Part shown: positions 1 to 18,349 of the stretch, one piece after another
Position numbering within the stretch: position 1 is the first letter of the stretch
Layout of the letters: the number at the start of each line of letters is the position of its first letter
DNA from: an uncultured Carboxylicivirga sp.
Lineage (GTDB): Bacteria > Bacteroidota > Bacteroidia > Bacteroidales > Marinilabiliaceae
DNA length: 64,000 bases
Reading direction: 5' to 3'
NCBI RefSeq assembly: GCF_963668385.1
Contig: NZ_OY764327.1
Span: 1 to 64,000, forward strand
The notes under the pieces: model-generated
The model's input: only the letters and a program-made list of their open reading frames with translations
Databases searched by the model: none
What the model was told of the DNA's origin: nothing
Translations under genes and position numbers: made by a program

Positions 1-220
1 CTAATCCGTTACCGTGATCCCAGTGTCCATGACTTAGAATAATGGTACTTACTTCTTTATACAAATCAATACCAAGCTTTGTTGCATTTTTGAGAAATAC
101 ATCGCTGTGCCCTGTATCGAAAAGAATTTTATGCTCTTTTATTTCAATAAGATAAGAAAGTCCATGCTCAGCAAGGAAACTTGCTCCTGCACAATTGTCA
201 GTTAATACGGTTAATTGCAT
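1..220 (-). CDS. MBL-fold metallo-hydrolase, partial
   Basis: This is the first 73 codons of a gene that runs off the left edge. The start ATG is at 218-220 and overlaps the end of the preceding gene by 10 bases. The translation opens MQLTVLTDNCAGASFLAEHG and then has LIEIKEHKILFDTGHS and ILSHGHWDHGNG. The last is the HxHxDH zinc-binding motif of the metallo-beta-lactamase fold. The DTGHSD and SHGHWDH motifs fit the subgroup annotated as 7,8-dihydropterin-6-methyl-4-(beta-D-ribofuranosyl)aminobenzene-5'-phosphate synthase-like hydrolases, which often neighbour NifX/ORP-type genes in anaerobes. The true substrate of that subgroup is not settled. It is the last gene visible of the long minus-strand cluster. 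Confidence 0.8.
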   Translation of the reverse strand, partial: MQLTVLTDNCAGASFLAEHGLSYLIEIKEHKILFDTGHSDVFLKNATKLGIDLYKEVSTIILSHGHWDHGNGL

Positions 221-453
221 GTAGTTTTTTCATTAAGATGAATGTTTAAAGCTTCTTCAACGAAATCAGGTACACCCATTGGATACCAGTTTTTACTATC
301 GACAAAAACAACAGTCGAAATACCCATCTTTCGTAGTAATTCAGAACGAGCCTGATGGCAATAGCTAACATAATTGGCATGGTAAACATATCCCATCTGG
401 TCAACCTCTCCATATCTGGGGCGTAATTGTATTTCGTCTGTTATCATAATCAT
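211..453 (-). CDS. Truncated YbgC/4HBT-type acyl-CoA thioesterase
   Basis: An 80-residue hotdog-fold fragment. Residues 10-45 match the N-terminal half of the YbgC/4-hydroxybenzoyl-CoA thioesterase family: RYGEVDQMGYVYHANY with the catalytic Asp at 18, then the helix with ARSELLRKMGI. Family members are about 130-140 residues long and continue with two more strands and a helix. Here the similarity stops near residue 45 and is followed by about 35 unrelated residues ending EKTTCN. The other two frames downstream do not restore the missing half. The reading frame overlaps the next gene by 10 bases and is 1 base from cobO, so it is translated as part of the cluster. It may be a decayed gene, or a short protein that kept only the substrate-loop half. 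Met3 is an alternative start. Confidence 0.6.
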   Translation of the reverse strand: MIMITDEIQLRPRYGEVDQMGYVYHANYVSYCHQARSELLRKMGISTVVFVDSKNWYPMGVPDFVEEALNIHLNEKTTCN

Positions 454-454
454 T

Positions 455-970
455 TTAAAATTCTATTCCTTTTCGAGCTTCAATGCTCGAATTATAGTAA
501 TGTTTAACTTCTTTCATTTCAGTTACCAGATCGGCAATAGCAATAATTTCTTCGGGGGCATATCGTCCAGTAATTATTATCTCTGTTTCGGGAGGTTTAG
601 ATTGCACTATTTTAATCAAATCCTTTACAGAGAAAAGGTTGAAGAAAAGTGCAATATTGGCTTCATCCAATACGATTACATCATAGGATGCTGCTTGAAT
701 AAATTTTTTGATTTCCTGTAATCCTTTTTGTGCGCTTTCAATATCTGCTTTTGTTGGCTCTTTTTCTATAAAACAACCTAAACCGTATTGTTTTAGAGTA
801 ATTGTAGGCGAAAGCTTTTGCAGTACAGTGATTTCAGAATAAGGCTTGCCTTTTACGAATTGGGCAAAAAACACCTTTTTCCCAGCGCCAACCGCCCTGA
901 TTGACAAACCTATGGCTGCGGTTGTTTTTCCTTTTCCATTGCCTGTATAAACCTGAATAAACCCTTTCAT
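455..970 (-). CDS. cobO: Cob(I)yrinic acid a,c-diamide adenosyltransferase
   Basis: The enzyme transfers the 5'-deoxyadenosyl group of ATP to the cobalt of reduced corrinoids, giving the coenzyme B12 form. At 171 residues it is the normal size for the CobO/BtuR/CobA class. It has the unusual P-loop GNGKGKTT at residues 10-17, the FVKG segment after strand 2, and VIVLDEAN as the Walker-B-like strand. The N-terminus is the shorter form without the extra helix of Salmonella CobA. No other cobalamin gene is nearby, so it more likely serves corrinoid salvage than de novo synthesis. It sits 3 bases from the radical SAM gene and 1 base from the thioesterase fragment, in one transcription unit. Confidence 0.92.
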   Translation of the reverse strand: MKGFIQVYTGNGKGKTTAAIGLSIRAVGAGKKVFFAQFVKGKPYSEITVLQKLSPTITLKQYGLGCFIEKEPTKADIESAQKGLQEIKKFIQAASYDVIVLDEANIALFFNLFSVKDLIKIVQSKPPETEIIITGRYAPEEIIAIADLVTEMKEVKHYYNSSIEARKGIEF

Positions 971-973
971 TGG

Positions 974-1912
974 CTAAGTGTTATAAGTTCTCGTGTAATA
1001 ATTAAATCCATTAAAACTCGACTTCTTTATTTTACCGTTTTGTATAAGTTGTTCAAGTACAGAGTGATCAGCGGAATCTTTTTCAAGTAATTCGTCAATG
1101 GTATCTTCCCTTAAAGGGTGAACGGATGAAATTGTAAGAATATCTGCCTGAGCATCGCCAGTGTATCCTGTGTCTGTCCCTTCAAACCCCGTAAGGGTTT
1201 CTACATTAATGTTGTGGTTTTTAAATATCTGCCATGCTTCCGCAATCCGAGCCTCCGAAACAGGTTTTACTCCCTTTTCAACAGGTGGACGAGTAGGGAT
1301 TGATATATATGCTTTATTTGGTTTTAATCCTGAAATAAATTTTGCGGTATTCTGAATATCAGATATACTATCGTTATACCCTTCAACTAGCATAGTCTCA
1401 GTGTTTAAGATTCCTTTATAATCATTGCTAAAGATTTTAATCCCTTCAAGAATTGCATCAAGATTTAGCCAAATATACGGGCGGTTAATTTTTTTCCAGG
1501 ATGCTTCATTAACCGAATCTATTTTAACCGAAACCCAATCGGCATTATATAAATCGTTACGGGTATGTTCTTTGTCTAATAAACTTGCATTGGTAATTAC
1601 CGCAACAGGCAAACCTAATTGCTGCAATTGCCTGATTAAAGTACCCAGGTTTATATCAAGGGTAGGTTCTCCATTGGCAACAATGGTAAGGTATTTCGGT
1701 CGGTGTGTAAGGTCTAATTTTTTTAAATGCGATTTAACTTTCTCGTAAATGTGCTGTGGTTTGTAAAGTTCAGTCCTGAACATCGACTTATTGGAGGTTT
1801 CTCCAACCTGGCAGTACACACAGGAATAAGAACACTGTTTTGGTGGTAAAATATTGTTAATTCCTAAACTTGTAATTAACCTTCTTGAAGGTACTGGCCC
1901 AAAAATTATCAT
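974..1912 (-). CDS. Radical SAM protein (COG0731-like)
   Basis: A 312-residue radical SAM enzyme. The N-terminal FGPVPSRRLITSLGIN, followed by the cluster motif C27-x3-C31-x2-C34 (within QCSYSCVYCQVG), is typical of the Fe-S oxidoreductase group related to wyosine-type proteins. VANGEPTLD is the glycine-rich SAM-binding strand, and KIDSVNEASWKKINRP is the later barrel segment. The C-terminal 60 residues look like a small winged-helix tail (HPLREDTIDELLEKDSADHSVLEQL). The substrate is unknown. Proteins of this type are often encoded with metal-cofactor genes in anaerobes, which fits the context. The gene is 6 bases downstream of fabF. Confidence 0.85.
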   Translation of the reverse strand: MIIFGPVPSRRLITSLGINNILPPKQCSYSCVYCQVGETSNKSMFRTELYKPQHIYEKVKSHLKKLDLTHRPKYLTIVANGEPTLDINLGTLIRQLQQLGLPVAVITNASLLDKEHTRNDLYNADWVSVKIDSVNEASWKKINRPYIWLNLDAILEGIKIFSNDYKGILNTETMLVEGYNDSISDIQNTAKFISGLKPNKAYISIPTRPPVEKGVKPVSEARIAEAWQIFKNHNINVETLTGFEGTDTGYTGDAQADILTISSVHPLREDTIDELLEKDSADHSVLEQLIQNGKIKKSSFNGFNYYTRTYNT

Positions 1913-1918
1913 AGCAAA

Positions 1919-3163
1919 TTAAATAAATCGTTTAAACAGAGAAGTAAAAATATGACCTCCAAAGCCAAAGGTGTTGTTCAACGCCGTATTTATTTCTTTA
2001 TTAACCGCTTTGTTTGGGGTTAAATTCAGGGCATTGTCTATATCAGGGTCGGTTTCGTTAAGGTTCATTGTTGGAGGGACAACACCTTCTTTAATTGCCA
2101 TAACACACGCTACTGCTTCAACAGCCCCGGCAGCACCCAATAAATGACCAATCATCGACTTGTTTGCACTTACATGTAGACTTTCCAGGTTATTGGAAAA
2201 CACATTGCAGATAGCTTTACATTCGCTTAAATCACCCACAGGGGTTGACGTTCCGTGTGCGCTGATATAATCAATGTCAGAAGGTGCAAGCCCGGCTTCA
2301 TTGATGGCATCAAGCATTGCTGTAACAGCTCCTTCACCTTCGGGATGTGGTGCTGCAATGTGATAAGCATCGGAACTAAAACCACCTCCGGCTAATTCGC
2401 AATATATTTTTGCTCCTCGCTGTTTGGCATGTTCCAGTTCTTCTAATAATAGTACGCCTGCACCTTCACCCATTACAAAACCATCACGGGTTTTATCGAA
2501 AGGACGAGAAGCCGTTTCGGGACTGTCGTTTCGCGCAGATATAGCTCTCATAGAACTAAAACCACCAATACCAGATTGTGTTACACAGGCTTCTGAACCA
2601 CCTGCAAAAATAGCATTGGCCTTGCCTAAACGAATAAGGTTAAAAGCATCAATTATGGCATTATTACTTGATGCGCAAGCAGATGTAGTAACATAACTAA
2701 CACCTTTTAAACCATAACGTATGGAGATATACCCGGCTGCCATATTAGAAATAAGCTTGGTAATAAAGAAGGGACTAAACCGTGATATCTCCGGGTTACG
2801 GTTAAAGCTAGTCACTTCGTCTTCGAAAGTTTTTATCCCTCCTATACCCGAACCCCATATTACCCCGGTTCGTTTTAAGTCTGTTTCGTCTAATTGAATT
2901 TTTGCATCAGCCAAGCATTCTTCCATAACTGCAATGGCATAGTGTACAAAAGCATCTTGTTTGCGGACTTCTGCTTTTTCCAGATATTGTAAAGGATCGA
3001 AATTTTTTACTTCTGCTGCAATCTGTGTTTTTAAATTAGAGGCATCGAACCTGGTAATCTTTGATATTCCGTTTTTACCTTTAATAAGATTGTTCCAAAA
3101 ATCGTTTACATTATTACCAATTGGCGTTAATGCTCCCATACCTGTTACTACTACTCGTTTCAT
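1919..3163 (-). CDS. fabF: 3-oxoacyl-ACP synthase II
   Basis: A condensing enzyme that elongates acyl-ACP with malonyl-ACP. At 414 residues it is full length. The catalytic triad is intact and at the same numbers as in E. coli FabF: C163 in TTSACASSN, H303 in SAHGTSTPVGD and H340 in NKSMIGHLLGAAGA. It ends with the usual NTFGFGGHIFTS motif. It is not with the acpP/fabD/fabG genes that normally surround fabF but among metal-handling genes, together with a fabH 1.8 kb away. That suggests a paralogue with a dedicated role or one under special regulation. A 114-bp gap with an inverted repeat precedes it, the longest gap of the cluster. Confidence 0.93.
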   Translation of the reverse strand: MKRVVVTGMGALTPIGNNVNDFWNNLIKGKNGISKITRFDASNLKTQIAAEVKNFDPLQYLEKAEVRKQDAFVHYAIAVMEECLADAKIQLDETDLKRTGVIWGSGIGGIKTFEDEVTSFNRNPEISRFSPFFITKLISNMAAGYISIRYGLKGVSYVTTSACASSNNAIIDAFNLIRLGKANAIFAGGSEACVTQSGIGGFSSMRAISARNDSPETASRPFDKTRDGFVMGEGAGVLLLEELEHAKQRGAKIYCELAGGGFSSDAYHIAAPHPEGEGAVTAMLDAINEAGLAPSDIDYISAHGTSTPVGDLSECKAICNVFSNNLESLHVSANKSMIGHLLGAAGAVEAVACVMAIKEGVVPPTMNLNETDPDIDNALNLTPNKAVNKEINTALNNTFGFGGHIFTSLFKRFI

Positions 3164-3199
3164 ACGTGTAATTTTTACTATTAATTGTCATATGGAACC

Positions 3200-3253: not shown

Positions 3254-3277
3254 AGTTTTATAATTCAATGTTTTGGT

Positions 3278-3655
3278 TTATACTATTTTTTCTGCCCCGG
3301 AGAAAATTTCCTGTACTTCAACAACAGCAACACCATAACCTGGCAAATCAGCTCTGTTCCATTTTTTCATGTCGTTGAACTCATCGCCTTCCGTTTTGTA
3401 ACACACGCTTCCTTTTAATTGATATGATTTTGTCTCTTTTGTAATAAATAATACAGTTACTTTTTTACTGTTTTCAATGTTTTCAAGTGTCTTTTTAAAC
3501 TTGTTATTCGCAATTAGTACTTTGTTATCATTGAATAATGCTGCCTGTGTAGCATAAATTGAATTTGGAATACCTGCCTCAGAAACTGTAGTTAAAACTA
3601 TAGCATCTTGTTTATTGCTCCATTCTTTTTTTATTAATTCCGGTATTGTTATCAT
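3278..3655 (-). CDS. Pyridoxamine 5'-phosphate oxidase-family flavin-binding protein
   Basis: A 125-residue split-barrel protein. The opening MITIPELIKKEWSNKQDAIV, then VLTTVSEAGIPNSIYA and later KVLIANNKFKKTLENIENSKKVTVLFI, match the small PNPOx-like FMN-binding family. These proteins usually bind FMN or F420-like cofactors and act as small oxidoreductases, or simply hold flavin. It lacks the pyridoxamine-specific C-terminal part, so true PNPOx activity is unlikely. It is 14 bases downstream of the DUF1847 gene. Confidence 0.82.
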   Translation of the reverse strand: MITIPELIKKEWSNKQDAIVLTTVSEAGIPNSIYATQAALFNDNKVLIANNKFKKTLENIENSKKVTVLFITKETKSYQLKGSVCYKTEGDEFNDMKKWNRADLPGYGVAVVEVQEIFSGAEKIV

Positions 3656-3669
3656 TTTGTAATTTTCTT

Positions 3670-4137
3670 TTAGTTATAATGTTCTAACTCTTTAATTGCT
3701 TTTAAAGAGTTGTGTTTATTGGTAAAGTCCTTGTCGAATAAATTGGTTACTAAACCTTCGGATAGTTTACTAAATATCATATCGTGTCCTACACACAATC
3801 CCATTGAAATGTTAAGTTCTGTTTTATGATTATTTAAAAAATCAGCCTGTCCGGCAGGATTGCATAATATACGCTTACTTTCACCTCCTAACAGCTCCTT
3901 TTTAGTTAGGTTGCCGTATTTACAATCAACAGAATATACGTTGAAATATTTTGATAAATAATCACTTAACACTTTTGCTTCGTGAGAAAAAGAAATGCAA
4001 TGAGCAATACCTATCCGTTTGAAATTAGTACTTTGAGCAAAGTTTTTTATTTCTTCAATTCTGTTTGTTCTTAATTTAGAGCAATCGGCATTTGATTGCA
4101 TGATTGCCCTAAATTCTTTCGTGTATAATCCAGTCAT
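3670..4137 (-). CDS. DUF1847 (putative metal-binding) protein
   Basis: A 155-residue protein of the DUF1847 family. Recognisable parts are FKRIGIAHCISFSHEAKVL near residue 40, VYSVDCKYG, the CNPAGQADFLN motif and the C-terminal LCVGHDMIFSKLS. Several conserved cysteines and histidines make metal binding likely. Many relatives are longer and begin with an extra cysteine cluster, which this copy lacks. Function is unknown. It lies between kduI (13 bases) and the flavin protein (14 bases), inside a cluster rich in metal-handling genes. Confidence 0.75.
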   Translation of the reverse strand: MTGLYTKEFRAIMQSNADCSKLRTNRIEEIKNFAQSTNFKRIGIAHCISFSHEAKVLSDYLSKYFNVYSVDCKYGNLTKKELLGGESKRILCNPAGQADFLNNHKTELNISMGLCVGHDMIFSKLSEGLVTNLFDKDFTNKHNSLKAIKELEHYN

Positions 4138-4150
4138 ATTTATTCGTCCG

Positions 4151-4990
4151 TTATTTTAAGTCTGTTGGTAAATGCACATCCATATCACCATAATCAAGGT
4201 TTTCGCCTGCCATACCCCAAACAAAAATATAATTAGAAGTACCGGATGCGCTATGGATTGACCATGCGGGAGAGATTACAGCTTGTTCGTTTTTCATCCA
4301 AATATGCCTTGTTTCGTCGGGTTTACCCATATAATGGCATACTGCTTGTTTTTCAGGTACTTCAAAATAAAAATAGGCTTCCATACGGCGGCTATGTGTA
4401 TGGGCAGGCATGGTATTCCAAACACTTCCCGGTTTTAATTCGGTCATGCCCATTTGTAATTGGCAGGTTTGCACATTGCTGTTTACAATAAGCTTATTAA
4501 TTCTTCGAGCATTCGATTCTTCCAATGAACCTAAATCGATACATTCAGCATCATCAAGGGTTATTTTTTTAACCGGGTACGATGCGTGTGCAGGAGCTGA
4601 ATTTAAGTAAAACCGGGCAGGTGTCTTCTTGTCAGAACTTTTAAATATAACCTCTTTATTTCCTGAACCAATATACAGCGCTTCTTTGAATTTAAGTTCG
4701 TATTCAGTTCCATCAACACTAACAACACCTGTTCCTTTTCCTACATTTATTACGCCAAGTTCCCTACGAGCTAAAAAGAATTCGGCTTTAAGTGCATCTA
4801 CTGTTTCCAGTTTCAGTTCTTTGGAAATTGGTACTGCTCCGCCTACTATAAAACGGTCGTTGTGGGAATATACAATGTATATCTCATCATCTTCGAGAAT
4901 GGTTTCAAGAAGAAATTTATCCCTGATTTTTTGGGTGTTATAACCTTCAAAATCTTGCGGATCTGTTGCGAATAGTTCTTTAAAATTCAT
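4151..4990 (-). CDS. kduI: 5-dehydro-4-deoxy-D-glucuronate isomerase
   Basis: A cupin-type enzyme that isomerises 5-keto-4-deoxyuronate to 2,5-diketo-3-deoxygluconate, a step in degradation of unsaturated uronates from pectin and related polymers. At 279 residues it is full length. The zinc ligands are visible as H197 and H199 ([13 protein letters not shown]), E204 and H246 ([10 protein letters not shown]), matching the E. coli enzyme within one residue. It is co-directional with FabH and DUF1847 in the metal cluster and not with the pectin genes 20 kb away. Either uronate metabolism is tied to this regulon or the gene is a metal-dependent paralogue placed under metal control. Confidence 0.92.
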
Positions 4991-5010: not shown

Positions 5011-6000
5011 TTAATTATCATAAGCCCATTTTAAGTATATCGAACCCCAGGTAAAACCGCCTCCAAAAGCTGATAAAATAAGCTTATCGCCTTTTTTTAG
5101 GTCTTTTTCAAGCTCCCACAAGCATAAAGGGATAGTGGCAGCCGTAGTATTGCCGTAACGTTCAATGTTTATTTTAATCTTATCTTTCGTTAGCCCCATT
5201 CTTTTACCTACAGCTTCAATAATGCGGAGATTTGCCTGATGGGGAACAAACCATGCCAGTTCTTCAGCACTTATATTATGTTTTTTCATCATACCAACAG
5301 AAGTATCAGCCATACTTGTAACAGCAACTTTAAAAACCGATTTTCCTTCCTGGTATATAAAATGTTCTTTTGCATCGACAGTTTCGTGTGAGGCGGGTCT
5401 GAGAGAACCTCCTGCTTTCATATACAAAAAGTCTTTTCCTGAACCGTCAATATACAAATCGTGGTCAAGTACCCCTGTTTTTTCTTCAGTGGGCTCTAAC
5501 AGCATGGCAACGGCAGCATCGCCAAATAAAACACAGGTTGTGCGGTCAGTATAATCTGTTATTGACGACATTTTATCGGCTGCCACAAGTACTACTTTTT
5601 TGTGTTTGCCAGTTTCAATAAATTGTGATGCTGTTTGAAGGGAAAAAAGAAAACCCGAACAGGCAGCACTTATATCAAATCCCCATGCATTTTTTATCCC
5701 TGCTTTATCAGCAATTAAACAGGATGTTGACGGAAAAAACATATCGGGAGTAACGGTAGCGGTAATTATCAAGTCAATTTCTTCGGCTGATGTATTGGTT
5801 TTTTGTAGAAGCTTTTTAACGGCTTCTGCACCCATATCGGATGTTGCCAGACCTTCTCCTTTTAAAATCCTTCGTTCTTTAATACCAACCCGTTTGGTAA
5901 TCCATTCATCGGAAGTATCTACCATTTCACTTAGTTTTTCGTTGGTTAATTTGTAATCTGGCAAGTATGCCTCTATTCCTGAAATTTTTGCAGTTATCAT
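5011..6000 (-). CDS. fabH: 3-oxoacyl-ACP synthase III
   Basis: The enzyme starts fatty-acid synthesis by condensing acyl-CoA with malonyl-ACP. At 329 residues it is full length and has the complete triad: C114 in DISAACSGFLFSL, H254 in WFVPHQANLRII and N284 in ERYGNTTAATIP. It is encoded 20 bases upstream of kduI and 24 bases downstream of feoB. It is not next to plsX or rpmF, the usual partners, so it is probably a second copy. With FabF and the thioesterase fragment of the same operon it might make a special acyl chain. Confidence 0.93.
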   Translation of the reverse strand: MITAKISGIEAYLPDYKLTNEKLSEMVDTSDEWITKRVGIKERRILKGEGLATSDMGAEAVKKLLQKTNTSAEEIDLIITATVTPDMFFPSTSCLIADKAGIKNAWGFDISAACSGFLFSLQTASQFIETGKHKKVVLVAADKMSSITDYTDRTTCVLFGDAAVAMLLEPTEEKTGVLDHDLYIDGSGKDFLYMKAGGSLRPASHETVDAKEHFIYQEGKSVFKVAVTSMADTSVGMMKKHNISAEELAWFVPHQANLRIIEAVGKRMGLTKDKIKINIERYGNTTAATIPLCLWELEKDLKKGDKLILSAFGGGFTWGSIYLKWAYDN

Positions 6001-10731: not shown

Positions 10732-11688
10732 TTATTCGCATCCAAAACACGAAATGGGTTTATCGGGCACAAAATCTATTATTTTGTAATTCAATTCCTT
10801 GGAGACACTTTCGGTAGATTCATTAATGTTGTTAAATACCAATGAATTGTCACCAAATACTATTTTTAGGGGCGATATAAAAAAAGCATTCTCATTGCAA
10901 TAACTTGTTACAAGTTTGGGTGAAAACCTTTTGTATTCAACACTACCTTTTTTAACTACTATTTGGTTAGATGAGGTGATAACACTTTGTACAGAACCGT
11001 CTTCGTTCAAACATAAAGAATGACTTTCTGCCTGAATGCCGTTTGGGTCGGGGTCAAATACTTTTAATTTGCCAATAGGACTGTTAACGGCAAGTTCTTC
11101 TAGGGGTTCAAAGCCTTTTACCTTTCCGTTTTTATAAAAAGAAATACCCTTTCGAATAAGCATTTCGCCCATATCTGTTGTTATTTTCACATGCTCATTA
11201 GGCCAAAACAGTAAGCTTTCTAGCTCACCTGTTTCATAAAACTGCAAATAGATTGGCTTAACTTTAATTTCACCCACAGCCGTTTGTATATCAATGATTT
11301 CTGCCAATTCACATTCATTCTCTTCCGTCCAAAAACCAGTAACTTTTCCATTTAAAGGGAAGGTACGATACAAAGCACCGCTTTTATAAAATATTACCAA
11401 CTCGGATTTTATAGTTCCAACCGAAGTGGGTATTTCTGTTAACTTTTCTAAAGGCAACGATTTTAATTCACCTGTTTTATAAAATTTTACAGGGGCTTCC
11501 TTTTTTCTCCCAGAGTCATCATCAAGGGTATATCTTGGAATAAGATTTCCGACAGATGTTTCAAGAATTATTTCTTCGCCAACTAAAACGGTATCAATAT
11601 TTCCATTTTTATTCCTTGAAATTAAATGGCTTTTCGATGAAAATTGTTGTTGCATATCCATTATTTGATGTTTTAGTTCATTTATCAT
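10732..11688 (-). CDS. MORN-like repeat protein, function unknown
   Basis: A 318-residue soluble protein with no signal peptide. It has about five degenerate repeats of roughly 40 residues, each with a TSVG/TAVG/TDMG/SPIG turn followed by a strand and an FYKTGELKS-type segment (also FYKSGALYR, FYETGELES, FYKNGKVKG). These resemble MORN_2/YwqK-type repeats. It ends in ISCFGCE, a CxxC pair that could bind metal or be redox-active. Its start overlaps the stop of the DUF4405 gene by 4 bases, so the two are translationally coupled. Nothing shows a catalytic site. A scaffold role for the neighbouring metal proteins is possible but unproven. Confidence 0.55.
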   Translation of the reverse strand: MINELKHQIMDMQQQFSSKSHLISRNKNGNIDTVLVGEEIILETSVGNLIPRYTLDDDSGRKKEAPVKFYKTGELKSLPLEKLTEIPTSVGTIKSELVIFYKSGALYRTFPLNGKVTGFWTEENECELAEIIDIQTAVGEIKVKPIYLQFYETGELESLLFWPNEHVKITTDMGEMLIRKGISFYKNGKVKGFEPLEELAVNSPIGKLKVFDPDPNGIQAESHSLCLNEDGSVQSVITSSNQIVVKKGSVEYKRFSPKLVTSYCNENAFFISPLKIVFGDNSLVFNNINESTESVSKELNYKIIDFVPDKPISCFGCE

Positions 11689-12422
11689 TCCTTCATGTTT
11701 TTGCTCTCTATGTAATCTCGTATATCATTTAACTGAAAATTATATTGTTTACGCAATCTTCCCAATCTTTTATTATTGTTACCAGTAGGTACATTAATGC
11801 TTTTAGCCAGTTCATGTGCAGAAACATTGTACTTTTCTGCAACTTCATTAATAGTCATGTTCCCATATATTTCGATATCTGATTGGTGAGCATGTTTGAG
11901 CTCCGTATGATGCTCTACATCTGGTATTTTTTCTTGGTCTTGTCCTATGTCAGGTTTTGCTTCAACTTTGTTTTTATATTGCCTTTCTTCAAAAGAATAG
12001 CCTTTACCATGCTTACTATTGTGAGCATGGTTTAAGACACTTTCATCAACTTCGGGATTAAGAAAAAAAGGAACAATACCAAAAACAAACGTGAATAATA
12101 CCAATAATGAGCCTAGGATAACTCGCAATGCTTTTGCTGGTACCATCTTTTTAAAAATTCCAATAATCTGTTTCCAATGAAATACAATGTGAAGTACCAA
12201 TAAAAAGAGCAGGACAAAACTCAGGATTAAATGAATTGTTCCCCACTGGTGTCGGTCAATACCCCAATAGTAAAGTTCAACATCACGTCCATAAATATCA
12301 TTTCGTTTAAAGCCAGGAACAAGCACGTATTTAATCAGAAAACCAATACCAGCAATTGGTATCATTAACATAAACATGAGTATGTCTATTGATAAATTTA
12401 ATTTTGGTTTGTTGATTTTCAT
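11685..12422 (-). CDS. DUF4405 membrane protein with a C-terminal helical domain
   Basis: The start is taken at the ATG at 12420-12422. A longer frame from a TTG at 12446 would run into the ferredoxin gene. The protein is 245 residues long. About four membrane helices come first (IDILMFMLMIPIAGIGFLIK; IHLILSFVLLFLLVLHIVFH; VILGSLLVLFTFVFGIVPFF). The histidines (GTIHLIL, LHIVFHW) resemble the haem-ligand pairs of DUF4405/cytochrome b-like proteins. A His-rich linker (HAHNSKHGKG, VEHHTELKHAH) could bind metal. The end holds a helical domain with MTINEVAEKYNVSAHELA and LGRLRKQYNF, also seen in other DUF4405 proteins. It probably passes electrons between the membrane and the ferredoxin encoded 4 bases upstream. 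Confidence 0.72.
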   Translation of the reverse strand: MKINKPKLNLSIDILMFMLMIPIAGIGFLIKYVLVPGFKRNDIYGRDVELYYWGIDRHQWGTIHLILSFVLLFLLVLHIVFHWKQIIGIFKKMVPAKALRVILGSLLVLFTFVFGIVPFFLNPEVDESVLNHAHNSKHGKGYSFEERQYKNKVEAKPDIGQDQEKIPDVEHHTELKHAHQSDIEIYGNMTINEVAEKYNVSAHELAKSINVPTGNNNKRLGRLRKQYNFQLNDIRDYIESKNMKE

Positions 12423-12426: not shown

Positions 12427-12600
12427 TTAATCTTTAATAGCTCCAACAGGACATTCTCCTATACATAAGCCGCAGTTACGACATTTCTCATTGTTAATTT
12501 GCGCTTTACCATCAATTAATTCTATAGCGGCCATAGGACACACCTCTACGCATACACCGCAACCAGTGCATTCTTCTTTATTTACTACCGGATACTCCAT
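12427..12600 (-). CDS. 2[4Fe-4S] ferredoxin
   Basis: A 57-residue bacterial ferredoxin. It opens MEYPVVNKEECTGCGVCVEV and has two complete C-x2-C-x2-C-x3-C-P motifs, ECTGCGVCVEVCP and KCRNCGLCIGECP. It can carry two [4Fe-4S] clusters and move single electrons at low potential. The ATG is at 12598-12600 and the TAA at 12427-12429. It is 24 bases downstream of mrp and 4 bases upstream of the DUF4405 gene, so it is the natural electron carrier for this operon. Confidence 0.93.
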   Translation of the reverse strand: MEYPVVNKEECTGCGVCVEVCPMAAIELIDGKAQINNEKCRNCGLCIGECPVGAIKD

Positions 12601-12624: not shown

Positions 12625-13400
12625 TTATTTGCTTATTTTATTTACCAGCTTTTCAAAAGCCTGTACAATTAATTTGCTGTTTGATGCAAATACCGTTTTA
12701 CCAGTATCACCAAGTTCGCAAACATCACTTACAAGCGGTATTTCAGCCAACAAAGGACAACGAAGCTCTTTGGCAAGTTCAATACCTCCTCCATTTCCAA
12801 ATAAATAGTATTTTTCATCGGGATGTTTTTCGGGTGTGAACCACGACATGTTTTCTACAATACCCAATATTTCAATATCAATTTTTTCGGTTTTGAACAT
12901 ATTGGCAGCTTTTCGCCCATCAGCAACAGCCATTTGTTGCGGAGTAATTACTATAATAGCCTTTGCTTGTGGCAATTTCTGTGAAAGGGTAATACAGATA
13001 TCTCCTGTTCCTGGAGGCATATCAATTACAAGGTAATCCAGTTCGCCCCAAACGGTATTTTCAAGCAACTGTGTTAAAACTTTTGAAGCCATTGGCCCAC
13101 GCCAGATTATAGCATCTTCCTTTTTCATTATCAGACCAAGCGACATGGTTTTTACACCATATCTAGAAATTGGTATAATTGCTTCTTCCTCTTCTTTTTT
13201 TCTACTTGAGGGTGTTGGTCACTTACGCCAAGTGTTAAAGGCACAGATGGTCCATATAAATCGGCATCTAAAAGCCCGGCAGAAAAGCCTTCTCTTGTTA
13301 ATGCAACGGCAAGGTTAGTTGCAACAGTTGATTTTCCAACCCCTCCTTTACCTGACGCAACAAGGATTATGTGTTTTACTTTATCTAAATAATTTGCCAT
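12625..13400 (-). CDS. mrp: Mrp/NBP35-type Fe-S carrier ATPase, interrupted by a -1 frameshift at A_AAA_AAG
   Basis: A P-loop ATPase that carries or inserts Fe-S (and perhaps Mo/Cu) clusters. The first reading frame, from 13400, gives [10 protein letters not shown] and the Walker A GKGGVGKS at residues 17-24. It stops after 82 residues at 13152. The second frame, to 12625, carries the rest: [28 protein letters not shown] and VENMSWFTP. The two join exactly if the ribosome slips -1 at the heptamer A_AAA_AAG (13194-13200), giving [18 protein letters not shown] and about 258 residues in total. One missing A in an A8 run would look the same. The usual scaffold CxxC of Mrp is not obvious. Two [4Fe-4S]-type ATPases and a ferredoxin are encoded beside it. 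Confidence 0.85.
13194..13201 (-). other. Slippery heptamer A_AAA_AAG in mrp
   Basis: On the minus strand the codons read GAA AAA AAG across an A7 run. The heptamer A_AAA_AAG is in the phase that allows a -1 slip, the same signal used in E. coli dnaX. After the slip the next codons are GAA GAG GAA GAA GCA and lead into the conserved Mrp frame. A purine-rich stretch follows. No strong downstream stem-loop was seen by eye. Confidence 0.6.
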
Positions 13401-13448: not shown

Positions 13449-14063
13449 CTATCTGTATTTTAAATATTGAATGGGATAATCAGTTGGTATTTTGCCTTGT
13501 TTTATTTGCTTAAGTTTATTTCTCGTAAGTTTTTTGTTTAAAGCAGATAGATGGTCAATAAAAAGCAAACCTTTTGTGTGGTCAAATTCATGTTGAATAA
13601 CCCTTGCCGTATAGCCGGAAAACATTTTTCGATGTAAAACAAAATCTTTGTCAAGATATTCAACAATAATATCCCATGGTCGTTTTATATCTTCACTTAT
13701 TCCTGGGATACTAAGGCAACCCTCGGTCAGTTTGTTTGTTTCTTCGGAATATTCTAATATATTGGCATTTATAAAAACTTCTTCAATACCCTTGTCGCCA
13801 CAAAATAACTTCTTACGGTAATTTGTTTCCAGTTCATCATACATTAAGGTACTTTTTACAACAAATGCGTTAAGCTGGCTATCAATTTGAGGAGCAGCTA
13901 ACCCAACTCCACCTGATATTTCAAGCGTATTCCATAAATCCTCAATAAGTTTATCTACCAAAATATCCCTATCGTAGATGTTCCGGCTTTTTTGCCTCAA
14001 AACAGGATTGCCATAGGCTATAATCGGCAAGGCTTTATTTGTTAGTTTATCAATCTTTTCCAT
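13449..14063 (-). CDS. def: Peptide deformylase
   Basis: The enzyme removes the N-formyl group from nascent proteins using Fe(II). All three motifs are present: GGVGLAAPQ at residues 51-59, EGCLS at 114-118 and QHEFDH at 157-162, with metal ligands C116, H158 and H162. At 204 residues it has an insertion between motifs I and II and a C-terminal tail typical of Bacteroidota copies. It overlaps the 3' end of the upstream MinD-type gene by 22 bases, so the two are coupled. It is not with fmt, which suggests an extra copy inside the metal cluster. Confidence 0.93.
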   Translation of the reverse strand: MEKIDKLTNKALPIIAYGNPVLRQKSRNIYDRDILVDKLIEDLWNTLEISGGVGLAAPQIDSQLNAFVVKSTLMYDELETNYRKKLFCGDKGIEEVFINANILEYSEETNKLTEGCLSIPGISEDIKRPWDIIVEYLDKDFVLHRKMFSGYTARVIQHEFDHTKGLLFIDHLSALNKKLTRNKLKQIKQGKIPTDYPIQYLKYR

Positions 14064-14908
14064 ACCGTTTTGATGATTTCTGTAATTTCTGATTCAGGTT
14101 GATACTCAACAATAGTTTGCCCTAAAGTCATTGCTTCAACCATTTTCTCATCAAAAGGAATCTGAGCCAACAAGGGGATGTTATTATCATTGAGAAAAGT
14201 CTTAATTTCCTCTACAACTTCTTCGTTAATATCAAATTTGTTAATGATAGCATAGGTTTCGATATTGAACGAGTTGATTAGTTCAATAAGACGAATAGCA
14301 TCATGTAATCCTGATTTTGTAGGTTCAATAACAAGTAAAACCCTATTAGTACCCGATATTGAAGCTATAGTTGCACAACCAATTCCGGGAGGGCCATCAT
14401 TAAGAATGAAATTGAGATTAGAAGCTAATCCAATTTCCTTTGCCTTTTTACGAACTTGACTAACCAGTTTACCTGAATTTTCTTCACCCGGCCCCATTTC
14501 TGCATGAACTAAGGTTCCAAACCGGGAGGTAGAAATAAACCAGTGATTGTTTGTATTTTCAATTGAAGATATAGCATCATTCGGACATACACGTTCACAT
14601 AACCGACAACCTTCGCATTGCAGGGAATTAATATATATTTCTCCATTGTCATGCTGATGAATCGCATCAAAACGACAATGTTGTAAACATAAACTACAGG
14701 CATTACATTTCTCGCTATCAATGCTAACTGCCCACCCACTTGAAAAATCGTATTTTTCCTGTATTGTTGGATTGAAAAGCAAATGAAGGTCGGCAGCATC
14801 CACATCATTATCGCAATAAACAGCATTTTTAGCTACCGAAGCCAAAGCAGCTGCAATGGTTGTCTTTCCTGTTCCACCTTTACCACTTAAAATAGTTATC
14901 TCCTTCAT
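14042..14908 (-). CDS. MinD-type ATPase with inserted 2[4Fe-4S] ferredoxin domain (ORP-cluster type)
   Basis: A 288-residue P-loop ATPase of the deviant Walker A group: GKGGTGKT at residues 9-16 with the signature lysine. A ferredoxin module sits at residues 68-108 (C68, C71, C74, C78 and C98, C101, C104, C108). The ATPase fold then continues (NDGPPGIGCATIASISG; LLVIEPTKSGLHDA). Such proteins come in pairs, here with the gene 9 bases upstream, and in Desulfovibrio they are partners of the orange protein (ORP). They are likely to load or transfer a metal-sulfur cluster under ATP control. The gene overlaps def by 22 bases. Confidence 0.88.
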   Translation of the reverse strand: MKEITILSGKGGTGKTTIAAALASVAKNAVYCDNDVDAADLHLLFNPTIQEKYDFSSGWAVSIDSEKCNACSLCLQHCRFDAIHQHDNGEIYINSLQCEGCRLCERVCPNDAISSIENTNNHWFISTSRFGTLVHAEMGPGEENSGKLVSQVRKKAKEIGLASNLNFILNDGPPGIGCATIASISGTNRVLLVIEPTKSGLHDAIRLIELINSFNIETYAIINKFDINEEVVEEIKTFLNDNNIPLLAQIPFDEKMVEAMTLGQTIVEYQPESEITEIIKTVWKRLIN

Positions 14909-14917
14909 AATTCATGT

Positions 14918-15790
14918 TCATTTCATTAGTTTATGTGATAAATTCTCAACTATTTTTTCATAACTGAGTTTTATGTTATCAGGTGTGTTTTCAACAATAT
15001 TTCCTTTTGCGTAAATGCTTGCATAGTCCCGACTAAAAGGCAATTCACCCAAAAGTTTAATGCCTTCATTTTTTAAATATTTATATACTTCATTACTGCC
15101 TAAACCAGCTTTGTTCACAATAACCCCAAAAGGTATTTCTACTTCTTTCATAAGGTTTACCATTAATTTTAAATCATGTAAACCAAAAAGGGTTGGCTCT
15201 GTGACAAGTATCACGTAATTTGCATCGCTAATAGTTTCTACCACAGGACAGCTCGTTCCCGGAGGGGCATCAAAAATTACAATTTCATTATTTTCCGACA
15301 CTCTTTTTTTGAGGTCTTTAATCAGCATAGTTTGCATAGCAGAACCAATTTTGAGCCTGCCTTCTTTTAAGCCATTGATATTTTTTGTCCGGTATGAGTT
15401 TACCCAGCCAATTGTTTCAGGATTCTCAGTTATTGCGTTATGCTTGCAAGCAACCATACAAGCACCACAGGAATGGCACAGGCTTTTGTTTACTTCGGCA
15501 AAATTTACAGGTGGTATTACAACAATGGCATTAAACTCGCAATAATCAACACACTCACGACAAAAAGTACATTTATCTGTATCAATATGAGGTATTAATT
15601 GAAAAACCTCTTCCTGTTTTTCCTTAATCGCACCCTCAAAGAATATAAGATCATTGGGTTCTTCCACATCACAATCAACCAGTTCTATTTTATTGCCTAA
15701 TACTTTATGTAGCATGGCATATAAGTTTACTGCAACTGTTGTTTTTCCGGTTCCGCCTTTTCCACTTGCTATTGCAATTTTGTATGACAT
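14918..15790 (-). CDS. MinD-type ATPase with inserted 2[4Fe-4S] ferredoxin domain, second of a pair
   Basis: A 290-residue sister of the next gene. The Walker A GKGGTGKT is at residues 10-17. The ferredoxin insertion has C74, C77, C80, C84 and C105, C108, C111, C115. The later ATPase motifs are IFDAPPGTSCPVVE and LVTEPTLFGLHDL. The two proteins are similar in layout but clearly diverged, so they probably form a heterodimer. The gene is 7 bases downstream of the DUF89 gene. Known relatives are the ORP-cluster ATPases of sulfate reducers and archaea. Confidence 0.88.
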   Translation of the reverse strand: MSYKIAIASGKGGTGKTTVAVNLYAMLHKVLGNKIELVDCDVEEPNDLIFFEGAIKEKQEEVFQLIPHIDTDKCTFCRECVDYCEFNAIVVIPPVNFAEVNKSLCHSCGACMVACKHNAITENPETIGWVNSYRTKNINGLKEGRLKIGSAMQTMLIKDLKKRVSENNEIVIFDAPPGTSCPVVETISDANYVILVTEPTLFGLHDLKLMVNLMKEVEIPFGVIVNKAGLGSNEVYKYLKNEGIKLLGELPFSRDYASIYAKGNIVENTPDNIKLSYEKIVENLSHKLMK

Positions 15791-15797
15791 GTCAATA

Positions 15798-16640
15798 TTA
15801 ATTTAACTGAGTTACTATAAGGTCATTCATACTACACCCCAGCATTTCTGCCATTGGTTCACATTTTGCCATAAGCAGAAAAAATGTGTTTGGGTGTTTC
15901 TCGTTCATTAATCCCTCAAAATTGCCCTGGCCTTTTGAAATGATTAAGTCTGCACTATTATATGCCAGTTTAAATTCATCAGAACAAAACTCCAACAAAG
16001 TTGATGGTGCATCGAACCCATTATCAATTATCTCGCATATATTATCAATACCAACCTGTTTGGCGTCTTCTATTGTAACATCGTTAATTACAGGCGCTCC
16101 TCTTGTTACAAAAGTTACTTTAGGATGACGTATAGTTTCAAGCAGTAATCGGTCGAAAAATACTTCCCCGGCATTGTCACCTAGATATAATATCCGTTCA
16201 GCTTTATCAATAGCTTTCTTGAACTCTTTTGATTTGTCAATAGCAAAGGGAGTGTTTATTAAATCTTTTATTTGTTCCTTAATATCTCCATTTACGCTGT
16301 GCGCCCCATAGTCTATAATATTTCCTGCTACGGCAAGTCTAACTGCTGTATAAAAAGGATTATTACTGTTGTCGATATAGTTCCTCCAATACTCATAATC
16401 AGCTAATAATAATTTATTAGCACTTAGTTTCTCACTAGCATACAAATCTTTGTTATTCAACTTTTGTTTTGCAATGCGTTGAATATTAGTAGCTAATTTG
16501 GGATTAATCATACTGCGATTATCCCCCAATATTTCATGCACTGAAAAGATGAAATCCTCCGAAACAGTTTTTGGAGGATTAAACTTAGCAAGCAGATTTT
16601 TCACAGTTTTTATGTGACAAAAATAACACTCTGGTCTCAT
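15798..16640 (-). CDS. DUF89/ARMT1-like metal-dependent protein
   Basis: A 280-residue stand-alone DUF89 protein of the AF1104-like group. The N-terminal MRPECYFCHIKT has a CxxC pair. The metal-site motifs are LYLGDNAGEVFFDRLL near residue 155, VTRGAPVINDVT and ISKGQGNFEGL near the C-terminus. Relatives are cobalt-, nickel- or manganese-dependent phosphatases thought to clear damaged phosphorylated metabolites. In ORP-type loci a DUF89 protein is a repeated neighbour. It is 12 bases downstream of the NifX-like gene. Confidence 0.82.
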   Translation of the reverse strand: MRPECYFCHIKTVKNLLAKFNPPKTVSEDFIFSVHEILGDNRSMINPKLATNIQRIAKQKLNNKDLYASEKLSANKLLLADYEYWRNYIDNSNNPFYTAVRLAVAGNIIDYGAHSVNGDIKEQIKDLINTPFAIDKSKEFKKAIDKAERILYLGDNAGEVFFDRLLLETIRHPKVTFVTRGAPVINDVTIEDAKQVGIDNICEIIDNGFDAPSTLLEFCSDEFKLAYNSADLIISKGQGNFEGLMNEKHPNTFFLLMAKCEPMAEMLGCSMNDLIVTQLN

Positions 16641-16652
16641 TCAAATTTTATA

Positions 16653-17021
16653 TTAATGTCCACCACATTCATGATCTGCATCATGATTGCAATAATTAGC
16701 CGTAAAATTTAATGTGCCGTCTAAGTGTCCTTTCACTAATTCAATGGCATTTAGTTGGGGCGCACCAACAAAAGCATTTACTCCGTTTTGGTTAAACAGT
16801 TGAATAGCTTTTTGTCCCATCCCTCCGGCTATAATGTCTGTTACGCCTTTCTCACCTAACCATTGAGGTAACAAACCAGGTTCGTGTGGGGGAGGCACAA
16901 CTTTTTCTTCTGAAATAACTTTATCGCCATCGGTATTTACCAATGCGAAAAACTTACAATGCCCAAAATGAGCATCCAGTATTCCTGTTTCGTTAACAGG
17001 CAAAGCAATTTTTTTTGTCAT
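16653..17021 (-). CDS. NifX/NifB-type (ORP-like) metal-cluster protein
   Basis: A 122-residue protein of the dinitrogenase iron-molybdenum cofactor family: MTKKIALPVNETGILDAHFG, then a glycine-rich IIAGGMGQKAIQLF. The C-terminus is rich in possible ligands (ANYCNHDADHECGGH) and could hold a metal. Family members bind Fe-Mo precursors or, in the Desulfovibrio orange protein, a Mo-Cu sulfide cluster. With the second NifX-like gene at 17.6 kb and the paired ATPases it forms the core of the cluster. Confidence 0.87.
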   Translation of the reverse strand: MTKKIALPVNETGILDAHFGHCKFFALVNTDGDKVISEEKVVPPPHEPGLLPQWLGEKGVTDIIAGGMGQKAIQLFNQNGVNAFVGAPQLNAIELVKGHLDGTLNFTANYCNHDADHECGGH

Positions 17022-17026
17022 GTTTA

Positions 17027-17298
17027 TTAAATTTTTTCTAATGTATAAATGATTAACATACCTGTTAAAATCAGGCTTACTTGTGCTAAAGAATCTTTGA
17101 AATTGGTTTTTCTGTGTATTTGCGGTACAAGGTCTTCCAATGTTATATAAATAAAGATTGCTTCGGAAAAAGCCAATACATAAAGAATTGGTTTATTTTC
17201 TGCTAACAACCTACCTAAATAGGTAGTAACCCCGATAAAAGATTAAATGTCAATGCTTTTACCTTGGAATACCCGTTATTTGAATTAAATAATCGCAT
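17027..17298 (-). pseudogene. ZIP-family metal transporter remnant
   Basis: Only the C-terminal third of a ZIP transporter remains. The last 60 residues read ENKPILYVLAFSEAIFIYIT, then LEDLVPQIHRK, and end IIYTLEKI. Upstream, in another frame from an ATG at 17296-17298, MRLFNSNNGYSKVKALTFNL followed by LSG continues the same protein. The two parts join if one G is added to a G4 run (C4 at 17230-17233 on the plus strand). Everything before is lost, including the first membrane helices, and is replaced by the DUF5320 gene 49 bases away. This looks like a deletion remnant. The single-base break could also be a sequencing error. Confidence 0.65.
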
Positions 17299-17347
17299 AC
17301 CTGAAGGATACACGATTATCTAAAACTGAGTTTTAAACTACCTGAAA

Positions 17348-17554
17348 TCAAGCGTTCCCCCTTCCATTCCTTCTACCCAAACCTTTACCTGCACCTCTAC
17401 CTGTTCTTCTGCCAAACCCTCTTCCTAATCCACGAGAAGTTTCACTAACATCAATTTGTTCGGTAGTTTCCCGATTGTTGGGATTACATTTCCCCATTTT
17501 ACGGCCTGTCTGAGAACCTTGTCCTTCTGGGCCTGTTCTATCAAATCTTGGCAT
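17348..17554 (-). CDS. DUF5320 protein, small Gly/Arg-rich
   Basis: A 68-residue protein. The start is set at the ATG at 17552-17554, because MPRFDRTGPEGQGSQTGRKM is the conserved opening of DUF5320. A longer frame upstream would overlap the NifX gene. After the head and GKCNP it has a low-complexity tail of Gly and Arg (RGLGRGFGRRTGRGAGKGLG). DUF5320 proteins are repeatedly found beside NifX/ORP genes and the DUF134 regulator. Their function is unknown. It is 4 bases downstream of the NifX-like gene. Confidence 0.78.
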   Translation of the reverse strand: MPRFDRTGPEGQGSQTGRKMGKCNPNNRETTEQIDVSETSRGLGRGFGRRTGRGAGKGLGRRNGRGNA

Positions 17555-17558
17555 AATT

Positions 17559-17876
17559 CTAATTTTTAAGTTTATTAATGATATTTTCAATTGTTAAGCT
17601 GTCATCTTGTAAGATGACCATTTGAATTTCAAACTTATCCAACAGCTCTTTAGCTTTTGGGCCAAAGTCGCCTGAGATTATTTTTTTAACATTTAATTCA
17701 ATAGCCTTTTCAGCAGCCTTCGTACCTGCACCATTAGATGCATTGAGATTCACGTTTTCAATGAACTCTGCTTCTCCGGTTTGATCATCGTAAATACAAA
17801 ACCATGCGGCCCTTCCAAAACGCTTATCAAAAACCGCAGTTGTTATATTTCCAGATGATGTTATTATTGTTTTCAT
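17559..17876 (-). CDS. NifX/NifB-type (ORP-like) metal-cluster protein, second copy
   Basis: A 105-residue member of the dinitrogenase Fe-Mo cofactor family, with FDKRFGRAAWFCIYDDQTGE near the start, the ASNGAGTKAAEKAI helix and KKIISGDFGPKAKELL. It lacks the His/Cys-rich tail of the other copy, so the two may have different jobs. Its start overlaps the DUF134 stop by 4 bases (ATGA type), so both are made together as the first genes of the operon. Confidence 0.87.
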   Translation of the reverse strand: MKTIITSSGNITTAVFDKRFGRAAWFCIYDDQTGEAEFIENVNLNASNGAGTKAAEKAIELNVKKIISGDFGPKAKELLDKFEIQMVILQDDSLTIENIINKLKN

Positions 17877-18283
17877 ATATCATTTTTTAAAAGATTAATA
17901 TTAATAGATGAACATATTGCACAGCAGTGCTTGTTTTGTGTTTTAGGTATAGTAAATCGTGCATTGCATACATGGCATTCATACCAGTTTTTATCTAATA
18001 ATGCGTTTCCATAAACCGTTCTGATTTCTTTTACCTCAACCATTGCCTTTGCAATTTTTCTTCTTGCGCTTTCGTAAATTCTTGCAAAGGTTGGACGGGA
18101 AATGCCCATCACTTTTGCTGCTGTTTCGTGGTTCATAAAATCATAATCCGACAATTTTATTGCTTCGTATTCTTCATAAAGCAATTCAATAAATTCATTT
18201 TTAGAATGATTTGCCCCATAAGGTTTATATCCTTTAAATCCAGGAGGAGCAATCACTTTTCTTAACCTTCTACGCCTTGGCAT
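17873..18283 (-). CDS. DUF134 helix-turn-helix regulator
   Basis: A 136-residue DNA-binding protein. MPRRRRLRKVIAPPGFKGYK is the conserved DUF134 head, so the start is the ATG at 18281-18283 and not the upstream ATG at 18319, which lies inside an operator. A sigma-70 region 4-like helix-turn-helix follows (NHETAAKVMGISRPTFARIY, then ESARRKIAKAM). The C-terminal part has two CxxC pairs (CHVCNARF, CCAIC), likely a zinc or redox sensing knuckle. The gene is first in the operon. Two palindromes in its promoter suggest that it controls its own operon. Confidence 0.87.
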   Translation of the reverse strand: MPRRRRLRKVIAPPGFKGYKPYGANHSKNEFIELLYEEYEAIKLSDYDFMNHETAAKVMGISRPTFARIYESARRKIAKAMVEVKEIRTVYGNALLDKNWYECHVCNARFTIPKTQNKHCCAICSSININLLKNDI

Positions 18284-18304
18284 ACAGACAACTAAATATT
18301 TAAA

Positions 18305-18349
18305 TGAGAATATTCTCACTACAAATATAATGAGATATATCTCATTATA
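18305..18349. promoter_or_regulatory. Twin palindromic operators TGAGA-N4-TCTCA
   Basis: Two perfect palindromes share the core TGAGA-N4-TCTCA. The proximal one is TGAGAATATTCTCA at 18305-18318. The distal one has the core TGAGATATATCTCA and extends as a perfect 24-bp palindrome over 18326-18349. Their centres are 26 bp apart, about 2.5 helical turns. They flank the -7 box, so a bound dimer would block RNA polymerase. The neighbouring DUF134 protein is the obvious candidate to bind them. Confidence 0.7.
18322..18329 (-). promoter_or_regulatory. Bacteroidota -7 box of the DUF134 operon promoter
   Basis: On the minus strand TATATTTG fits the Bacteroidota -7 consensus TAnnTTTG. It lies between the two palindromes and about 40 bases before the DUF134 start. 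A T-rich stretch about 19 bases upstream could serve as the -33 element. The placement puts one operator in the promoter spacer and the other over the likely transcription start. Confidence 0.5.

Follow-up and report, generated by a model that had tools for sequence, protein, structure and literature searches.

An ORP-like NifX/MinD gene cluster in Carboxylicivirga is carried on an integrative element

What is the long run of minus-strand genes at the start of contig NZ_OY764327.1 (RefSeq assembly GCF_963668385.1) of an uncultured Carboxylicivirga sp., a member of the family Marinilabiliaceae, and how did it come to stand there? We analysed positions 1 to 64,000 of this contig, a stretch of 64,000 nucleotides called the window here; its base 1 is base 1 of the single 6.27-Mb contig (C1) of the window genome (G000), and the run crosses the contig origin. 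An initial annotation had described the run as an operon under a DUF134 regulator that matches the core of the orange protein (ORP) locus of Desulfovibrio and that, in so extended a form, was not known to be described in Bacteroidota. The run is real and conserved and was partly misread: it is a mobile extended ORP-like module. The ORP-like core, its iron and redox genes and the conserved gene order stand, whereas the uniqueness in Bacteroidota and the match to the Desulfovibrio core are not supported.

The genes of this run belong to the cargo of an integrative element of about 32.8 kb, which spans window positions -9087 to 23,694 across the contig origin. One block of this length aligned at 97.9% identity to Plebeiobacterium marinum D04 (G048) and at 98.6% to Marinilabiliaceae bacterium A049 (G007), with an abrupt stop at both ends, whereas the rpoB loci of the two genomes are 78.2% and 89.5% identical, respectively, to that of the window genome. 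Since the identity of the element lies far above that of rpoB, recent transfer between marine Bacteroidota species is the only reasonable reading of these alignments. At one end the element encodes a large serine recombinase (Resolvase and Recombinase domains; match to the integrase family phrog_95), and it also encodes a primase-like protein; its left end, at about window -9087 (C1:6262003), adjoins the 3' end of a tRNA-Arg(acg) gene. A 318-amino-acid orphan protein of the cargo is about 100% identical in three of the 71 genomes of the family, one of them in a different genus, and occurs in one of the 393 genomes of the order, the window's own; a scan of genome_contigs returned two records, those of P. 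marinum D04 and bacterium A049. G187, from another family of the same order, holds a diverged copy of the element on a contig that breaks off within the primase gene. A search of the phage collection gave no match to MinD1. Plasmid matches to DUF89 (nine records) were considered and rejected, at most 38.7% of residues being identical.

The insertion sites were then compared. The left end adjoins tRNA-Arg(tct) in both G048 and G187, and ARAGORN placed a tRNA-Arg gene beside 8 of 13 sites with related recombinases (two in G000, and one each in G048, G187, G074, G134:C67, G008 and G038). In G049, which belongs to the genus of G048, tRNA-Arg(tct) passes directly into the sequence found to the right of the element in G048, which fits an empty site for the G048 copy; the similarity between the two genomes covers 528 bases on the right at 74% and 149 bases on the left at 81%, the latter mostly tRNA. 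An integrase at the end, an attachment site and an empty site, as expected of an integrative element, are present, although the empty site is seen for no copy but that of G048. Sequence to the right of the window copy also occurs in G007 and G009, but its left flank was absent from the stretches compared, so that no empty site is demonstrable for this copy, and the flank of the G007 copy gave no clean empty site. Two recombinase matches of equal score, G030:C45:168922-170397 and G388:C208:9868-11343, carry the same two in-frame stops and come from two different families, a pattern that would fit recent spread or contamination. The recombinase frame of the window genome (C1:6261906-6263567, window about -9184..-7523) runs across the attachment site; the last approximately 30 residues are encoded by host DNA (the antisense strand at tRNA sites) and vary between insertions, and in the predicted circular form the tail would derive from the right end of the element. 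This crossing could act as a switch of recombinase activity.

Cargo and backbone have diverged to different degrees. Window 1-14 kb showed 23 differences per 13,000 aligned bases against G048 and 21 per 13,000 against G007 (about 99.8% identical). At the primase end (19-23 kb), on the other hand, successive 1-kb bins held 56, 56, 93 and 103 differences against G048 and 18, 58, 71 and 66 against G007. The left cargo (-5 to 1 kb) carried 2-23 differences per kb against G048 and 0-22 against G007, and part of the recombinase side (-8 to -5 kb) 0-1 per kb against G048. Synonymous divergence (dS) of the cargo genes was 0-0.07 against G048 and G007, except for MinD2 against G048 (0.35), and that of the primase gene was 0.24 against both. 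With the cargo so much more alike than the primase end, recombination between the backbones of related elements is the simplest reading. MinD2 of G048 (equivalent to window 14042-14908) forms a single-gene patch of dS 0.35 inside otherwise near-identical cargo, which suggests local recombination with another cluster. Against G187, the ratio of nonsynonymous to synonymous divergence (dN/dS) was 0.03-0.24 in all 26 comparable genes of 33 tried (the N-terminal Mrp half, thioesterase and ZIP were left out, overlapping genes were included alike, and some dS values exceeded 1), indicating that the genes are kept by purifying selection.

The same backbone also carries other cargo. A second element of the window genome (C1:2189849-2233015) stands at tRNA-Arg(ccg), and its recombinase, primase and 372-amino-acid protein are 97%, 96% and 89% identical to those of the first. 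Its cargo includes NrfA- and NrfH-like cytochromes, ResB, cytochrome c assembly proteins, a Crp-type regulator, a hybrid-cluster (Prismane, Hcp-type) protein, DUF438 and PAS/hemerythrin proteins, and genes that, as read from sequence, resemble a type I restriction system. G008 holds the same backbone with yet another cargo. Recombinase matches occur in 13 of the 393 order genomes at E <= 1e-60 and, the window genome included, in 6 of the 71 family genomes at E <= 1e-150. These elements resemble known serine-recombinase islands in the recombinase at one end, the attachment site at a tRNA end, the apparent empty site and the swapped cargo; they differ from known integrative elements in that the cargo consists of metal or nitrogen-oxide modules and that the backbone open reading frames (ORFs) scanned, not every small ORF among them, gave no recognisable gene for a relaxase or for conjugation. 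We tentatively propose, at slightly less than even confidence, that this mainly tRNA-Arg-targeted recombinase family is a cargo-swapping vehicle for whole modules of anaerobic physiology in Bacteroidota. One cargo would equip hosts that lack it with an ORP-like metal-sulfur system complete with iron uptake and replacement enzymes, another, in the same genome, would bring NrfHA/Hcp-type nitrite and NO handling, and the cargo would outpace the vehicle through backbone recombination. The mobile form of the ORP-like cluster would show a mobile element moving anaerobic physiology and not resistance genes.

To which chromosomal clusters is this cargo related? DUF89 was present in 18 of the 71 family genomes and 75 of the 393 order genomes. 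We compared 54 loci outside the element, to which 15 of the 18 family genomes and another 39 genomes of the order contributed; G000 and G007, whose only DUF89 is that of the element, G026, with a fragment of 63 residues, and the G187 copy are not among them, nor are 33 of the 75 DUF89-bearing order genomes, all weaker matches. Neighbours were counted from -4 to +8 kb of DUF89 by tblastn (E 1e-5) with the window proteins and six G187 proteins, strand being ignored and distant family members counted, on stretches many of which end at contig ends. Among these 54 loci, NifX2 was found in 43, DUF134 and MinD1 in 38 each, MinD2 in 36, NifX1 in 34 and DUF5320 in 30, followed by Mrp (17), peroxiredoxin (14), thioesterase and radical SAM (13 each), CoADR (11), ZIP (9), CobO and MBL (8 each), DUF4405 (6), DUF1847 (5) and peptide deformylase (PDF; 4). 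In 33 control stretches the same families gave no match except Mrp (2), radical SAM (1) and CobO (1), so the accessory genes are commoner beside DUF89 than in these controls, which are non-random (many surround related recombinases or border on the element; L067, a stretch of the G187 contig, was excluded). The order DUF134-NifX-DUF89-MinD-MinD, whose conservation in relatives the initial annotation had named as the check on its reading, is kept in 27 of the 54 loci, and DUF89-MinD1-MinD2 in 34 of the 35 loci with both MinD genes on one strand.

The chromosomal clusters of the order share with the element the core order together with Mrp, peroxiredoxin, thioesterase, radical SAM, CobO, CoADR-like, MBL, ZIP and PDF genes. 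Such combinations, among them Mrp, peroxiredoxin, thioesterase, radical SAM, CobO and MBL genes, recur in these chromosomes, and the earlier view that Bacteroidota lack an extended form is not supported; since the accessory families recur, the extended form is ordinary in the order and its exact make-up variable. On the other hand, none of the 54 loci, nor any of the 36 having at least 12.8 kb downstream, gave a match to FeoA, FeoB, FabH, FabF, RibA, ModD, KduI, ACR3, ModA, PerR or the orphan, and no backbone gene of the element lay within the counted interval. FeoAB, MauE, RibA, FabH, PNPOx, FabF, PerR and peroxiredoxin are common to all four element copies; the G187 element is without ModD, the orphan, KduI, DUF1847, ACR3 and ModA. 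Each of the four carriers has two or three PDF genes, one of them on the element. A tree of DUF89 unites all four copies from the element in a single clade (100/99), next to G165 (99/85) and chromosomal copies of the family, and the separate chromosomal copy of G048 groups with G046. Since G000 and G007 have no other DUF89, the element is their sole source of the core, and it apparently gives some hosts a metal-sulfur handling module that they otherwise lack. Among the titles and abstract openings listed in literature searches, often the first 10-20 of many, none describes this cluster from Bacteroidota or from a mobile element.

Within the window, the run comprises 27 minus-strand genes from 18319 down to 1, counting Mrp once, with DUF134 at its head (Table 1). 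The ORF list and Pfam bore out the earlier inventory and the tight packing over 18 kb: DUF134, NifX, DUF5320, NifX, DUF89, two ferredoxin-MinD ATPases, Mrp, ferredoxin and DUF4405, as well as ModD, MauE/DoxX, FeoA, FeoB, the radical SAM protein and CobO, all lie on the minus strand, and this annotation supports an ORP-like core that is led by DUF134 and combined with genes for iron uptake and redox functions. To these we add peptide deformylase, RibA, KduI, FabH, FabF, DUF1847, PNPOx, the 4HBT thioesterase, the 318-amino-acid protein and the MBL-fold gene cut by the window edge. From MBL to DUF134, 24 of 27 intergenic gaps are shorter than 50 bases and five are overlaps (the two Mrp halves taken apart and DUF4405 taken from its ATG). 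Beyond the contig origin the run continues leftward on the same strand with ModA, a CoADR-like flavoprotein with a rhodanese domain and an ACR3-like transporter, followed, also on the minus strand, by a Fur-family PerR-like protein, a peroxiredoxin and the large serine recombinase; the ACR3-like (93 bits vs 282.8), PerR-like and CoADR-like assignments all fall below the NCBIfam cut-offs. Simple scans found promoter-like matches (69 vs 73.7, standard deviation 9.8, in shuffles) and terminator-like matches (16 vs 12.2, standard deviation 4.5) no more often than chance, and the minus-strand hairpin that we judged most convincing (18570-18550, then six T) sits in the interval that separates the primase gene from DUF134. 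Because the gaps are small and no strong internal terminator appeared, the layout fits, but does not prove, one long transcript starting at DUF134. At E 0.001 neither Pfam nor NCBIfam gave a match to the orphan, and its single-sequence structure prediction (mean pLDDT, the predicted local distance difference test score, of 31.7) was not used.

Table 1 Features of the gene run and of the right part of the element in the window
Feature	Position	Strand	Evidence or remark
MBL-fold metallo-hydrolase	1..220; full gene -577..220 across contig origin	-	PF00753, full ORF
YbgC/FadM-type 4HBT thioesterase, internal in-frame loss	211..453	-	intact 142-aa G187 copy: TIGR00051 103 bits vs 68.7
CobO/CobA corrinoid adenosyltransferase	455..970	-	PF02572; TIGR00708 170.8 bits vs cut-off 167.75
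Radical SAM protein	974..1912	-	PF04055; every NCBIfam match below cut-off
FabF-like ketoacyl synthase	1919..3163	-	Pfam
PNPOx-like protein	3278..3655	-	PF01243
DUF1847 protein	3670..4137	-	PF08901
KduI isomerase	4151..4990	-	Pfam; NF002091 425 bits vs 250
FabH-like ketoacyl synthase III	5011..6000	-	Pfam, NCBIfam
FeoB ferrous iron transporter	6025..7734	-	Pfam; TIGR00437 345 bits vs 315.65
FeoA	7828..8058	-	PF04023
MauE/DoxX membrane protein, BT_3928 family	8064..9200	-	NF045576 454.5 bits vs 250
RibA GTP cyclohydrolase II	9210..9815	-	TIGR00505 245 bits vs 205.85
ModD (QPRTase-like)	9855..10700	-	TIGR01334 224 bits vs cut-off 178.85
318-aa orphan	10732..11688	-	only in three near-identical element copies
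DUF4405 membrane protein	11685..12422	-	PF14358 47 bits vs 26.7; cytochrome b561 match weak, below cut-off
Ferredoxin, 57 aa, four CxxC	12427..12600	-	read from sequence
Mrp ATPase, frame broken near 13200	12625..13400	-	Pfam; two frames
Peptide deformylase (PDF)	13449..14063	-	PF01327; additional to chromosomal copies
MinD2, MinD-type ATPase with two Fer4 motifs	14042..14908	-	Pfam
MinD1, MinD-type ATPase with two Fer4 motifs	14918..15790	-	Pfam
DUF89/ARMT1-like phosphatase-family protein	15798..16640	-	PF01937; NCBIfam damage-control phosphatases below cut-off
NifX2 (Nitro_FeMo-Co)	16653..17021	-	Pfam
ZIP transporter C-terminal remnant	17027..17209	-	PF02535 27 bits, below cut-off 35.1
DUF5320	17348..17590	-	Pfam
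NifX1	17559..17876	-	Pfam
DUF134 predicted regulator, two C-terminal CxxC	17873..18319	-	PF02001
Element backbone: Toprim/DUF927 primase-like protein	18569..21274	-	Pfam and phage-family scan
Element backbone: 372-aa protein, no Pfam family	21310..22428	-	scans
Right end of element	23670..23694	.	block alignment

How close is the core to the ORP locus itself? The D. vulgaris locus encodes Orp3, Orp4, Orp5, the NifX-fold protein Orp8 and Orp9/MrpORP in divergent sigma54-driven operons with the activator DVU2106, MrpORP being a two-domain protein (P-loop NTPase and Di-Nase) (PMC6345978, PMC3897727). Orp3 and Orp4 are described there as MinD-type ATPases with two ferredoxin [4Fe-4S] motifs each; in the complex such ATPases join NifX-fold proteins, the metal-binding partners to which MrpORP hands Fe-S clusters, and Mrp/NBP35 Fe-S carriers have a CxxC cluster-binding motif (PMC6345978). 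Like this locus, the run in the window brings together two ferredoxin-type MinD ATPases (MinD1 and MinD2 have two Fer4 stretches each, as Orp3 and Orp4), an Mrp ATPase and proteins of the NifX fold. It differs in that all genes run in a single direction, with DUF134 at the head in place of DVU2106 (no sigma54 promoter search was made), that DUF89, DUF5320, PDF, FeoAB, RibA, FabH/FabF and other genes stand alongside, and that the whole is carried on a mobile element. The two-domain MrpORP is likewise missing: the window Mrp halves match P-loop families only and no Nitro_FeMo-Co family, and the intact G187 Mrp, of 264 residues, lay outside the Pfam scan. The supposed match to the Desulfovibrio core thus fails on the divergent sigma54 operons and on the two-domain MrpORP. 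With no Di-Nase domain, no CxxC in Mrp, a DUF134 head and a one-directional layout, the core reads as ORP-like rather than as a true ORP locus. An apparent lead to DUF134 in an iron-stimulon paper (PMC10434189) was rejected, the family named in the passage concerned being DUF1349.

What might the cargo do? As a proposal, it would be a self-contained anaerobic metal-sulfur module under the control of DUF134, in which the NifX-type proteins and the ferredoxin-MinD ATPases would build or hold a metal-sulfur cluster, with Mrp and ferredoxin as probable partners. FeoAB would supply Fe2+, ModA and ModD may handle molybdate, and the DUF4405 and MauE proteins would give membrane electron or thiol input. 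The peroxiredoxin, PerR-like and CoADR-like proteins and the extra enzymes would protect or replace redox-sensitive functions; that the extra PDF, RibA, FabH and FabF may substitute redox- or metal-sensitive host enzymes is the weakest step. Its inferred function is to assemble or repair metal-sulfur clusters during redox stress. Several observations weigh against this explanation of the run as a mobile metal-sulfur module. NifX1 is as close to MTH1175 (1eo1, E 1.6e-8) as to D. gigas ORP (2wfb, 1.8e-8), with 1rdu at 7.4e-8; neither the window Mrp halves nor the G187 Mrp contain CxxC, and Mrp is broken in two of the four copies and the thioesterase in three. For FabH, FabF, RibA and KduI a connection with a metal cluster is not obvious. 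As for mobility, the recombinase gene of the G187 copy is interrupted, the scanned backbone lacks recognised transfer genes, and by ARAGORN the sites in G007, G388, G335 and G030 have no adjacent tRNA and G134:C52 adjoins tRNA-Ser. We nevertheless consider the explanation as a whole likely.

Other explanations were weighed against it. The core gene order kept in many chromosomes of the order would suit a vertically inherited Bacteroidota operon lost by most relatives. We hold this to be highly improbable, as the cross-genus identity of the element is far above that of its hosts, insertion sites differ and shared ends are seen at different chromosomal sites, the G049 site looks empty, and G048 holds a separate chromosomal copy. 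Contamination of assemblies could in principle produce near-identical blocks, and three of the four copies (G007, G048, G187) come from draft genomes; however, the G000, G048 and G007 copies have different flanks, the right flank in G048 matches the genome of G049, from the same genus, and the window genome is one contig, which leaves this explanation hardly conceivable.

The remaining two explanations concern what the cargo is for. A true ORP system, making a Mo-Cu-S cluster and acting in cell division as proposed for Desulfovibrio, would account for the NifX1 match to 2wfb, for the paired ferredoxin-MinD ATPases resembling Orp3/Orp4 as described in PMC6345978, and for ModA and ModD. It appears quite unlikely to us: NifX1 matches MTH1175 equally, NifX2 matched four other structures and not 2wfb at E 0.01, the MrpORP fusion, the CxxC of Mrp, the sigma54 activator and the divergent layout are missing, and ModA and ModD are absent from the G187 element and from the 54 other loci. 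Alternatively, the run could be a redox, metalloid and peroxide stress island whose selected trait lies in the ACR3-like, PerR-like/peroxiredoxin, CoADR-like and MBL proteins, with the NifX core as sensor or helper. The peroxiredoxins (14 of 54 loci) and CoADR-like proteins (11 of 54) near DUF89, against none in the 33 controls, speak for it. In a wider map (-6 to +16 kb), however, 9 of 15 peroxiredoxins are 74-80% identical and six only 31-35%, and of 14 CoADR matches four are close (72-80%) and 10 lie in the 28-35% range, so that at 28-35% identity these may be other family members; the ACR3-like, PerR and CoADR assignments fall short of their cut-offs, and ACR3 and ModA are absent from G187. 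We regard a stress island as unlikely, if worth keeping in view.

This natural mobile form of the ORP-like NifX/MinD cluster is close to a ready-made gene set. The genes that travel together are named (the core, iron uptake, peroxide defence, PDF, FabH/FabF and RibA), and natural carrier and non-carrier genomes are offered for comparison. Beside the right end of the element, the window sequence reads as GH28-like and pectinesterase-like genes (23814-26590), while the element itself carries the pectin-pathway isomerase KduI; this adjacency is probably chance, because KduI is present in copies at other sites too.

Three genes, Mrp, the thioesterase and ZIP, are damaged in the window copy. The internal in-frame loss in the thioesterase is shared by three of the four element copies, only the 142-residue G187 gene being intact, and the reading frame of Mrp is interrupted in the copies of G007 and of the window genome, where two frames result, but intact in G048 and G187. 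Since its frame is broken, Mrp may be dispensable or provided by the host; another Mrp-like gene lies near C1:2180001 in the window genome. The break, shared by G007, falls at an A-run (window 13190-13210) that resembles a known -1 slippage heptamer.

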